14,177 nt of DNA, taken from the NCBI GenBank assembly GCA_900547455.1, contig URGV01000047.1:1-14177 (forward strand), read 5' to 3'. Positions within the stretch are counted from its first letter, which is position 1. Every line of letters begins with the position of its first letter. The position numbers and the translations under genes were made by a program. The notes under the pieces are model-generated. The model did no database searches. It saw nothing but the letters and a program-made list of their open reading frames with translations, and was not told the DNA's origin. Below, piece by piece: positions 7,083-14,177 of this stretch. Origin of the DNA: an uncultured Oscillospiraceae bacterium (lineage in GTDB: Bacteria; Bacillota; Clostridia; Oscillospirales; Ruminococcaceae).

Positions 7083-7152
7083 CCGGACCTATCAAATGTG
7101 ACCAATCAAAAGACAGGGATTTCACATATCTTACAAAAATCGAAAAATGAGA

Positions 7153-11543: not shown

Positions 11544-12863
11544 ATGTCCAGCTATGTTACCAAAAAAACACCGGGCAACACCGCCTGGTTTACCCATGAC
11601 CGCTTTGGCATGTTCATCCACTGGGGGCTTTATTCGATGCCGGCCCGCCACGAGTGGGTCAAGACCCGCGAGCGCACCCCGGAGGAGGTCTATGACCGGT
11701 ATTTCCAGTACTTTGACCCGGACCTCTATGACCCGAAGGAGTGGGCGCGGCAGGCCAAGGCGGCGGGCATGCGCTATGCGGTCTTTACCACCAAGCACCA
11801 CGAGGGCTTCTGCATGTTCGACAGCCAGTACACCGACTACAAGTGCACCAACACCCCGGCCGGGAGAGATTTGACCCGCGAGTTTGTCGACGCCTTCCGC
11901 GCCGAGGGCATCCACATCGGCTTCTACTATTCGCTGATTGACTGGCACCACCCGGACTTCACCATCGACGTCAACCACCCTCGCCGCGACGACCCGGACG
12001 CCAAGGAGCAGAATGAGGGCCGCGACATGCACCGCTATGCGGAGTATATGCGCAACCAGATCCGCGAGCTGCTGACCAACTACGGAAAGATCGACATCCT
12101 GTGGCTGGATTTCTCCTACAGCCAGCGCCACGGCGAGGGCGACAAGGCCTGGCTGGGCGGCAAGGGCAAGGACGACTGGGAGTCGGAGGAGCTGATCAAG
12201 CTGGCCAGAAGCATCCAGCCGGAGATCATCATCGACAACCGCGCTGAGCTGGAGCAGGACCTGTGGACCCCCGAGCAGTTCCAGCCGACCGACTGGTTCC
12301 GCCACCCCAAGACCGGGGAGCTGGTCACCTGGGAGGCCTGCCAGACCCTTTCCGGCTCCTGGGGCTACTACCGCGACGAGTTCACCTGGAAATCCCCGGA
12401 GATGCTCATCCGGATGCTGATCAACACCGTCTCCAACGGTGGCAACCTGATTATGAACGTCGGTCCGACCGCCCGCGGCTATCTGGATTACCGCGCAGAG
12501 GAGGCGCTGAAGGTCTACGCCGACTGGATGAAGTACAACAGCCGCTCGATCTACGGCTGCACCAAGGCCGAGCCGGAGTTTAAGACCCCGACCGACTGCC
12601 GCCTGACCCAGAGCGAGGACGGCAAGCGGCTGTACATCCACCTGTTTGCCTACCCGTTTGACAACATGAAGGTGCAGGGCTTGGCGGGCAAGGTGGCCTA
12701 CGCGCAGTTCTTGCACGACGGCAGCGAGGTCAAGTTCACCGACGGCAAGGTGGAGCTCATTAGCGACGACAAGCAGGAGGACGACGAGAGCGCGACCTTC
12801 TTCTATCTGCCGCATGTCAAGCCGCATACGCTGGTTCCGGTTATTGAGGTGTTTTTGCGGTAG
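11544..12863 (+). CDS. Alpha-L-fucosidase, glycoside hydrolase family 29, cytoplasmic
   Basis: This 439-residue enzyme carries GH29 barrel motifs: FGMFIHWGLYSMPARHEWV (21-39), TTKHHEGFCMFDS (82-94), YYSLIDWHHPD (128-138) and IDILWLDFSYS (183-193), in which Asp189 is the likely catalytic nucleophile. NTVSNGGNLIMNVGPTARG is another strong GH29 signature. A small beta-sandwich ends the protein. It hydrolyses alpha-L-fucosides and retains configuration. The acid/base residue of GH29 varies and cannot be assigned by eye. There is no signal peptide, so it probably works in the cytoplasm on fucosylated oligosaccharides already imported, such as mucin, milk or blood-group glycans. No transporter or fucose catabolic genes are in this window. 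The ATG at 11544 has GGGAGGAT about 7 bases upstream; an open frame extends to 11328 but overlaps the nitroreductase gene. The giant inverted repeat starts just after its stop. Confidence 0.93.
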   Translation: MSSYVTKKTPGNTAWFTHDRFGMFIHWGLYSMPARHEWVKTRERTPEEVYDRYFQYFDPDLYDPKEWARQAKAAGMRYAVFTTKHHEGFCMFDSQYTDYKCTNTPAGRDLTREFVDAFRAEGIHIGFYYSLIDWHHPDFTIDVNHPRRDDPDAKEQNEGRDMHRYAEYMRNQIRELLTNYGKIDILWLDFSYSQRHGEGDKAWLGGKGKDDWESEELIKLARSIQPEIIIDNRAELEQDLWTPEQFQPTDWFRHPKTGELVTWEACQTLSGSWGYYRDEFTWKSPEMLIRMLINTVSNGGNLIMNVGPTARGYLDYRAEEALKVYADWMKYNSRSIYGCTKAEPEFKTPTDCRLTQSEDGKRLYIHLFAYPFDNMKVQGLAGKVAYAQFLHDGSEVKFTDGKVELISDDKQEDDESATFFYLPHVKPHTLVPVIEVFLR

Positions 12864-13128
12864 GAGGGGCGTTTGTGCGGGGCTGGGAGCCCCTGCACCT
12901 CCCGATGCGAGGAGGGGCGCAGCCCCTCCGGGAGCAAGTCGTCAGACTTGGCTCCTCGCTCCTCCCCGTGAGTGGGCCTACCCGGCCCACACCCGGGGTT
13001 CCTTTCGTTTCACGACGAAAGGAACCAAAGGCGTGCCGGGGCTGCGCCCCTGGCCCCCCAGTGCGTAGTCGCCGCCCTTTTCGCGCTCGCTTACGCATCG
13101 CGCCGGGCTACCTTCTACCACCAACTCA

Positions 13129-13174
13129 GACCGATTTGCCACTTTGAGATGAGTGAGCGAATCGGTCTTTTTTT
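13129..13174 (+). terminator. Terminator inside the left arm
   Basis: GACCGATT (13129-13136) pairs with AATCGGTC (13160-13167), followed by seven T (13168-13174). It could end fucosidase readthrough. The loop is long (23 nt) and contains the 13133-13147 block's second half. Confidence 0.6.
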
Positions 13175-13251
13175 CTCCTTCGGTTTTTGCGGGGTCACAC
13201 CTCCTGTTTTCAAACCGTGGCGCGGCAGGTAGGGCACTGGGCGGCCGCTGT

Positions 13252-13430
13252 TGACACACTGACACAGTTGACACAGTTGACACAGTAATTTCCTAACTCT
13301 CTCTATATATCCTATTATAAAATATCTTTTTATAGAAATACTGTGTTTACTGTGTCAAGGCCAAACAAATGGCTTAATTAAGCCAAATTCCCTGACACAA
13401 ACTTGACACAAAACCGACACAGCCGACACA
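13252..13430. other. TGACACA iterons around an AT-rich core, origin-like
   Basis: TGACACA occurs on the plus strand at 13252, 13260, 13269, 13278, 13393 and 13404, with CGACACA at 13415 and 13424. The reverse form TGTGTCA is at 13351, with a near-copy at 13342 and another exact one outside the core at 13521. Most neighbours are 9 bp apart (TTGACACAG period). Between the left and right sets lies a 50-60 bp AT-rich stretch (13286-13340), and a 16-bp perfect palindrome TGGCTTAATTAAGCCA lies at 13370-13385. Iterons beside an AT-rich unwinding region are typical of replication origins of plasmids, phages and integrative elements. A repressor or transposase binding site is the alternative. Confidence 0.6.
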
Positions 13431-13888
13431 TTCGGCACCTGTAATCCCCGCGCCACGGTTTGAAAGTAGCCGGTGTTCCCCCGATAGAGCTCCAGGAGAA
13501 AGAAATGCCAATTGCATCACTGTGTCAAAGTGGCAAATCCAGCTGGGTTAGTGCCGCTACCCCCTATCGAGGGGGTGCGGCTTGCCGCAGGGGGAGCGAA
13601 GCATCCCCCTCGGGGGTTCAGGGGGATACCCCCTGACACGCCTTTGGTGACTTTCGTCGTGAAACGAAAGTCACCCGGGTGCCGAGCATGGCAAGGCCAT
13701 GCTCTCGCGGAGCGCCCGCTCAAGGGGAGAGCAGAGGGGCAACGCCCCTCGCATATTCGGGGTATGCAGGGGCCTTGCCCCTGCTCCAGCTCCCCCGGGG
13801 AGACGCAGTCCCCCCTTCACCTATACCCCGAAACGAACAAAAAGTTGCATCCCAACGTGCAACCGAACAGAAAGAAAAATAAAAAAAG

Positions 13889-13926
13889 AGGAGGCCCTCC
13901 CTGCCTGTTTGGGGGAGAGCCTCTTT
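13889..13926. terminator. Terminator-like hairpin, strongest on minus strand
   Basis: GAGGC (13891-13895) pairs with GCCTC (13919-13923) and CTCCC (13897-13901) with GGGAG (13913-13917), with one mismatch between. On the minus strand it is followed by TCCTCTTTTTTTATTTTT, a strong T-run; on the plus strand only by TTT. It would stop transcripts entering from the right. Confidence 0.6.
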
Positions 13927-13976
13927 GCATGTTGCGTCTGACGACACATCAGCATGTTCCGTCAAACGCAACATGC
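13927..13976. repeat. Long inverted repeat ahead of the RNA gene
   Basis: GCATGTTGCGT (13927-13937) is perfectly complementary to ACGCAACATGC (13966-13976). One base further in, TGACG (13939-13943) pairs with CGTCA (13960-13964). The loop also contains CATGTT. It has no T-run, so it may be an operator or a structured RNA element rather than a terminator. It sits 30 bases before the promoter at 14007. Confidence 0.65.
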
Positions 13977-14006
13977 GATCCGGGAAAAATAATTGTCCCG
14001 CAGCTC

Positions 14007-14035
14007 TTGAAAATTGCTGGAAAATCTGTTATAAT
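14007..14035 (+). promoter_or_regulatory. Strong promoter of the tRNA-like gene
   Basis: TTGAAA (14007-14012), 17 bp, TATAAT (14030-14035), with TG one base before the -10 (TGTTATAAT). This is close to ideal and typical of stable RNA genes. A start near 14042 leaves about 24 nt before the mature RNA. Confidence 0.8.
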
Positions 14036-14065
14036 TACTAAGCTTGATTGCATTCATTGAAATCT

Positions 14066-14177
14066 GGAGACGTATCGAAGTGGTCGTAACGAGAACGACT
14101 CGAAATCATGTTTCCACTTTGCAAGTCCAAACTGCCGAAAAGCCAGTAACCATGCGGGTTTGCGGGCAAGTTCAAAT
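14066..14177 (+). tRNA. tRNA-Ser-like RNA with CGA anticodon loop, truncated by window end, unusually long variable region
   Basis: GGAGACG (14066-14072) suits a serine tRNA acceptor strand, followed by TA and a class II D-arm (TCG at 14075-14077, CGA at 14090-14092, loop with GTGGTC). The loop CTCGAAA (14099-14105) would give anticodon CGA. TTCAAAT (14171-14177) looks like a T-loop preceded by GCAAG. Two things are wrong for a normal tRNA. The anticodon stem AACGA/TCATG has two mismatches, although skipping AT gives a perfect TCGTT. The variable region would be about 55 nt (14111-14165), against at most about 25 in known tRNA-Ser. GCAAGTCCAAA (14121-14131) nearly repeats GCAAGTTCAAA (14166-14176), 45 bases apart, so an insertion or duplication is possible. 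The 3' half of the acceptor lies beyond the window. Confidence 0.4.

Follow-up and report, generated by a model that had tools for sequence, protein, structure and literature searches.

Short palindromic repeats are common in bacteria. The REP/BIME repeats consist of palindromic units in inverted intergenic pairs and are moved by REP-associated tyrosine transposases, and the iterons of SaPI surround an AT-rich region. Other short non-autonomous bacterial repeats are the MITEs and similar sequences, such as the enterobacterial RU elements (PMC2759123). The P4 protein is reported to bind repeats at its origin, and the pRN1 origin to be formed by a stem-loop lying 3' of the gene for the primase-helicase (PMC4234260); the replication proteins of SaPI and P4 are described as having primase and helicase activity (PMC7145576).

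Here we describe a non-coding, mirror-symmetric element at positions 12879-13784 of a 14,177-nucleotide stretch of DNA (the window) from a gut bacterium, an uncultured member of the Oscillospiraceae, where it adjoins the gene of a sugar-cleaving (fucosidase-type) enzyme. Like MITEs and similar repeats such as the RU elements (PMC2759123), the element is short and non-coding, with inverted ends and many intergenic copies; it differs in having no detected target-site duplication or partner transposase, and in that its arms are multi-hairpin arrays and its centres are interchangeable, one kind carrying iterons. Palindromic units in inverted pairs between genes are shared with REP/BIME repeats, although the units of the element are longer and have three stems. 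In the P4-, SaPI- and pRN1-type systems, repeats or a large stem-loop serve as the origin, resembling the window element in this respect, and the pRN1 origin lies 3' of its replication gene, as the viral TGACACA arrays described below sit at gene ends; the window element, in contrast, has no adjoining replication gene and is embedded in a dispersed chromosomal repeat. These parallels are likenesses of layout, not proof. In the literature surveyed (mostly open-access, preprints excluded) we found no account of such an element or of TGTGTCA phage iterons.

Structure of the element and relatives of its arms

The following parts were distinguished in the element and its right flank.

12889..12928, plus strand: outer left GC-rich inverted-repeat arm, 73% complementary to 13734-13773
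12970..13053, plus strand: left three-hairpin module, in the order stem 1, stem 2 with TTTCACGA loop, AAAGGCGTG, stem 3 (covariance model, 83.6 bits, E 5.4e-16; among the 18 sequences used to build the model)
13119..13225, plus strand: left inner arm, from the GATTTGCCACTTTGA block to the TTTCAAACCGTGGCGCGG block, 79/106 identical to the reverse complement of 13448-13553
13128..13168, plus strand: hairpin with a 17-nt loop and then a T run, within the left inner arm (repeat search; missing from the terminator scan, the loop limit of which is 8)
13252..13284, plus strand: left iteron array, four TGACACA (motif positions)
13285..13350, no strand: AT-rich stretch, 77% A+T, possible unwinding region (A+T scan)
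13351..13357, minus strand: inverted iteron (motif match)
13393..13430, plus strand: right iteron array of four TGACACA, two exact and two with one mismatch (motif positions)
13448..13553, minus strand: right inner arm (complementarity and alignment to the left inner arm)
13521..13527, minus strand: iteron within the right inner arm (motif match)
13618..13702, minus strand: right three-hairpin module (covariance model, 67.6 bits, E 9.3e-13; also among the 18 sequences behind the model)
13734..13773, minus strand: outer right GC-rich inverted-repeat arm, complementary to 12889-12928
13843..13864, minus strand: hairpin, candidate outer right end (just after it, the reading of relative P0088 diverges from the window)

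The original prediction of a giant inverted repeat at 12879-13784 was borne out, since the arms are homologous in inverted orientation, with 295/417 aligned bases identical. The mirrored blocks were found where they had been placed, and the predicted 97-nt spacing is exact on both sides: from the end of ACCAAAGGCGTG at 13035 to the start of GATTTGCCACTTTGA at 13133 on the left, and from the end of TCAAAGTGGCAAATC at 13539 to the start of CACGCCTTTGGT at 13637 on the right. Four block pairs were measured and are complementary at 86% (12993-13041/13631-13679), 83% (13119-13147/13525-13553), 73% (13152-13225/13448-13521) and 73% (12889-12928/13734-13773). The global alignment of the whole arms scores 166 versus -75 +/- 14 in 300 dinucleotide shuffles (maximum -19.5), and with modules and iterons removed the inner arms score 73.5 versus -30.6 +/- 10.4 in 1000 shuffles (maximum 4.5); identity over aligned columns is 64/83 in the module and 79/106 in the inner arm. 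Thus the arms are continuous homology, not isolated blocks. Folded as single-stranded DNA, the element reaches -271.7 kcal/mol versus -153.6 +/- 5.9 for 20 shuffles, and the inverted structure is far beyond chance. This arm homology supplies the terminal inverted repeats typical of a MITE, the ends of the element being approximate.

Reading frames through the arms were used as probes against 5.8 billion predicted proteins, yielding 87 relatives of the left-arm frame, 17 of the right-arm frame and 29 of the outer-left frame, of which 87, 11 and 29, respectively, were read individually. The relatives have the arm in common and differ in the centre and the downstream part. An iteron reading (VSVCQQ), which points to iterons through the amino acids, is present in 14 of the 87 left-arm relatives; others have a CSLCCLC centre (18), an MITTP start (7), an LYP...LHPN stretch (6) or an SRLFDILHLKF start (6). 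Among the 29 outer-left relatives, the module reading occurs in 26, the inner-arm reading in 12 and another common end centre in 8, and a single one (P0105) reads into the iterons. That the element is singular is not supported, as its arms and iterons recur. The claim that no protein gene lies inside agrees with open frames not being kept in one frame among the relatives. By a simple motif, the inner arm is read in a different frame in eight of the 87, hence the arm frames are probably not genes, and these readings suggest that the conserved thing is the DNA and not a protein. Like a MITE, the element has no coding capacity; the sole Pfam domain among the relatives is PF00269, in two fused frames (P0118 and P0119) that start as small acid-soluble spore proteins and then run into the element. 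These two frames differ from each other in a 16-residue stretch before the junction.

Several relatives extend beyond the arms. Over 64% of the query P0105, which lies on a 55,026-base NCBI contig, shows no difference; it then continues as a reading of about 13196-13286, so that it looks like the same locus minus about 150 bp of the left inner arm. The tRNA-side flank of the window is also present in P0100-P0102. P0088 contains the right arm and diverges from the window after about 13862; from such peptide readings, the hairpin at 13843-13864 may mark the outer right end of the element. Among phage and plasmid records, neither the left-arm reading nor the whole element had a relative, and the core alone gave short partial matches to 7 and 8 records.

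The three-hairpin module family

Further copies in related genomes, the first check proposed for this locus, were found as modules. A blast search of the element against G001, a metagenome-assembled genome of an uncultured Negativibacillus sp., gave 25 matches, nearly all to one segment of the left arm, and matches were present in three of the six nearest-genus genomes (G001-G006). We aligned 18 copies of the module, two of them from the window. Stem pairs are changed on both sides (14/18), paired cells make up 87.6% versus 69.9% in shuffles, and the covariation score is 0.480 versus 0.160. Three points count against this: helix 1 pairs in only 72.5% of cells (helix 2 in 99.4%), the tally of additional pair types is unremarkable, with 52/500 shuffles attaining it, and the copies were chosen by a pattern in which the inner stem 2 bases are constant. 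With 150 candidates scored per genome, the covariance model matched 51 times in G001, 37 in G002 and 25 in G006, and not at all in G003-G005. Under stricter filters it matched in 8 of 119 family genomes, G001 included. The family genome G056 has 22 weaker module matches, all within about 2 Mb of one contig (C1, 924328-2938973).

From these matches 26 inward-facing module pairs of 233-482 bp were picked by hand, one of them cut by a contig end; single modules and outward-facing neighbours are also present. The window copy measures 733 bp from module to module because of its longer inner arms and core. The family thus combines palindromes in inverted pairs between genes, as in REP/BIME repeats, with the many dispersed copies of a MITE, modules in the genus genomes and arms among the predicted proteins. 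In the genomes searched only modules recur, with no arm that includes the inner blocks: the inner region gave one weak match among 197 family genomes, in a repetitive stretch reading as coding, and a profile of the arm reading gave only module-sized matches among 396 family genomes, in G001, G002 and G006.

The gene left of the element encodes a fucosidase-type protein that shares 92% identity with a protein of G001, 92% with one of G002 and 91% with one of G006, and 44% with one of G005; no relative was found in G003 and G004 at the limit used. Left of the fucosidase end, G002 is largely collinear with the window; to the right it has other genes, apparently for a uracil permease and for a transporter, and a tRNA-Ser(CGA) whose relative orientation is reversed. 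The window end falls inside the presumed start of a tRNA-Ser near 14068, and ARAGORN reported no tRNA in the window. Near the tRNA-Ser start, at 13927-13976, there is a 23-bp palindrome, GCATGTTGCGTC..., and in G002 the DNA from the transporter gene to the tRNA-Ser contains similar TGCGTCAAATGCAACATTTTAA repeats. No target-site duplication or clean empty site was found, the G002 locus being rearranged and the element ends approximate. At one site, G001 and G002 both have a copy, the stems differing in sequence; such sharing is also compatible with inheritance in place. No autonomous relative with the same ends was seen among the loci read.

Such observations could be accommodated by intergenic hairpin repeats of the REP/BIME kind that are retained by the host to shape transcript ends or the nucleoid and are spread or evened by recombination, not transposition, the iterons being a neutral tandem expansion. 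Short covarying hairpins between genes, the site common to G001 and G002 with its different stems, and nine terminator-like sites in 12800-14177 versus 2.1 expected are all consistent with this possibility, which we nevertheless consider rather unlikely. Convergent gene ends are not preferred (14 tandem, 5 divergent and 2 convergent among the 21 units with both neighbours called, from rough ORF calls), copies run into spore-protein frames, and the right iterons, which flank the AT-richest stretch, are spaced irregularly (11/11/9), as would not be expected of a simple slippage array. Mobilization by a REP-associated transposase (RAYT) was tried as an explanation and is not supported: the Y1 transposases of the genus are frames of 143-178 aa, and no transposase could be tied to the modules, the eight Y1 loci (in three of the six genomes) having no module on the flanks examined.

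The iteron core and TGACACA arrays in viral contigs

Exact TGACACA occurs 11 times in the window versus 1.15 expected, and eight of these lie at 13252-13527. With one mismatch allowed, plus-strand copies start at 13252, 13260, 13269, 13278, 13393, 13404, 13415 and 13424, and minus-strand copies at 13351 and 13521. The predicted iterons are therefore real, whereas their strict 9-bp period is not, the left copies being spaced 8/9/9 and the right ones 11/11/9. An AT-rich stretch in the core had likewise been foreseen, and 13285-13350 has 77% A+T versus 42% in the window; only 10 of 14112 segments of 66 bp are as AT-rich, nine at the core and one at 7119. Clustered iterons and an AT-rich unwinding stretch are features of iteron-type origins (P4/SaPI-like). 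The third, an adjacent cognate initiator gene, was not seen among the window ORFs read by eye, and no DUF5906 or VapE gene occurs in the six genus genomes. A promoter role for TTGACA within the iterons was rejected, as the promoter scan lists no site there.

No TGACACA array of the window's kind was found in 396 family and 394 order genomes. In the family genomes the triple TGACACA pattern has six matches, of which two read as coding repeats and one is different again; the other three (L118, L119 and L121) carry three TGACACA with an 11-bp period just after a presumed ribosomal protein S9 gene and its terminator, possibly an attachment site. A 20-mer with two mismatches allowed gave eight matches in the order genomes, none of them such an array.

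The proposal to look for Rep or primase genes near TGACACA arrays elsewhere proved productive in viral contigs. The sequence TTGACACAGTTGACACAGTAA is present in one of them, L006, where it lies at the 3' end of a frame of 832 aa that has a DUF5906 domain and matches to phage DNA primases, and the triple TGACACA pattern recurs in 56 viral stretches. Dense arrays, in which five or more TGACACA lie no further than 600 bp from the match, were present at 33 of 61 loci examined. A protein of the primase/helicase group accompanies 13 of the 33, in ten cases within 300 bp and in one at 336 bp, giving 11 within 340 bp; the eight primase/helicase frames tested had Pfam matches to DUF5906, D5_N, Prim-Pol, PriCT_1, AAA_25 and VapE. 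The remaining 20 have no such gene on the stretch covered. Control loci from unrelated patterns have a primase/helicase gene in 2 of 123 cases (one within 300 bp), a contrast inflated because the HMM seeds came from iteron loci and some loci are near-duplicates. Both orientations occur in 27 of the 33 dense arrays, several being mirror-like (e.g., ------++++++), and the largest gap is richer in A+T than the locus in 26. Dense arrays of 5-13 copies, in viral contigs of varied G+C, include L004, L006, L137, L139, L141, L150, L152, L166, L175, L178, L189 and others (IMG/VR).

The window core resembles these IMG/VR arrays (e.g., L004, L006 and L139) in iteron sequence, AT-rich stretch and the use of both orientations. 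Its iteron order, ++++-++-, is less regular than in the viral mirror arrays, its AT-rich stretch is not the largest gap among the iterons, and the viral arrays lack the hairpin arms, no match to the hairpin loop or AAAGGCGTG being present in viral loci L001-L086 and L250-L372. The hairpin 20-mer is absent from viral contigs. Two inner-arm patterns matched 50 and 73 viral stretches with no other feature of the element alongside, and a profile scan of viral contigs gave 41 pattern matches and no relative of the element.

The resemblance of the core to phage arrays beside primase-helicase genes would also be expected if the core were an origin left by an integrated phage, satellite or plasmid, since decayed and caught between two ordinary host repeats. 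We find this quite improbable. The two inner arms that flank the core are mutually homologous, and they come back together with the iteron reading in 14 of 87 relatives and around other centres in the remainder, so that the core travels as part of the repeat; moreover, no phage or plasmid gene was seen among the window ORFs read by eye. It is still less probable that the locus is a structured RNA, a transcribed palindrome whose RNA structure is what matters: the covarying stems and strong folding suit RNA as well as DNA, but no curated Rfam family matched at its gathering score, leaving the suggestion of a known RNA without support (eight low-scoring matches at a relaxed threshold are each below the gathering score of their family), no promoter-like site lies within the element, and the gene context of the copies is not constant. 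Finally, false joining of two strands during assembly, which the original prediction had named as a danger, is of negligible probability, for although several module matches sit at contig ends, as is often the case with repeats, 122/417 aligned arm bases (about 29%) differ and the same arms and flank, in same-locus readings, occur on other contigs.

Discussion

We assign a probability of roughly 0.6 to the reading that the element is a copy of a MITE/REP-like modular palindromic family, with an iteron-subfamily centre resembling a phage/satellite-type origin, mobility and initiator binding being the inferred components. The analysis establishes the family, its construction from palindromic modules and the repeated occurrence of the iteron reading. 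Each copy would have two diverged inward-facing arms, each with a covarying three-hairpin module, and inner arms and a centre that vary between copies; the family would be one of this bacterial lineage, placed between chromosomal genes. The copies may have spread as a non-autonomous element through an enzyme that recognises the hairpins in trans, and non-autonomous mobility appears the likeliest route of spread.

The element lacks a conserved protein frame, and its core is similar to viral arrays beside primase-helicase genes. By analogy with these arrays, the likeliest role of the core would be binding of a phage- or satellite-type primase-helicase initiator, at a site that would be either a working origin or a remnant or decoy. 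The suggestion of a MITE-like element carrying an origin thus stands as to the multi-copy inverted repeats between genes and the likeness of the core to primase-helicase arrays, and falls short as to a target-site duplication, a clean empty site and an initiator gene; in its likeness to known systems, the element may work as a MITE with an iteron origin. Counting against the preferred reading are the absence of modules from G003-G005 and of DUF5906 or VapE genes from the six genus genomes, and the 20 of 33 viral arrays without such a gene. A bolder and doubtful extension is that the iteron subfamily is a gene-free origin parasite, whose core would be fired in trans by an incoming phage or satellite primase-helicase, the copies being amplified during infection and re-inserted, or the initiator being titrated as a defence decoy.

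Found in both orientations beside viral primase-helicase genes, the TGACACA arrays have the appearance of a type of origin that recurs. If the window element is indeed a dispersed non-coding repeat built around a phage-type origin, it would link the way in which such repeats spread to the replication of phages, and would offer a testable route for the amplification of gene-free DNA.
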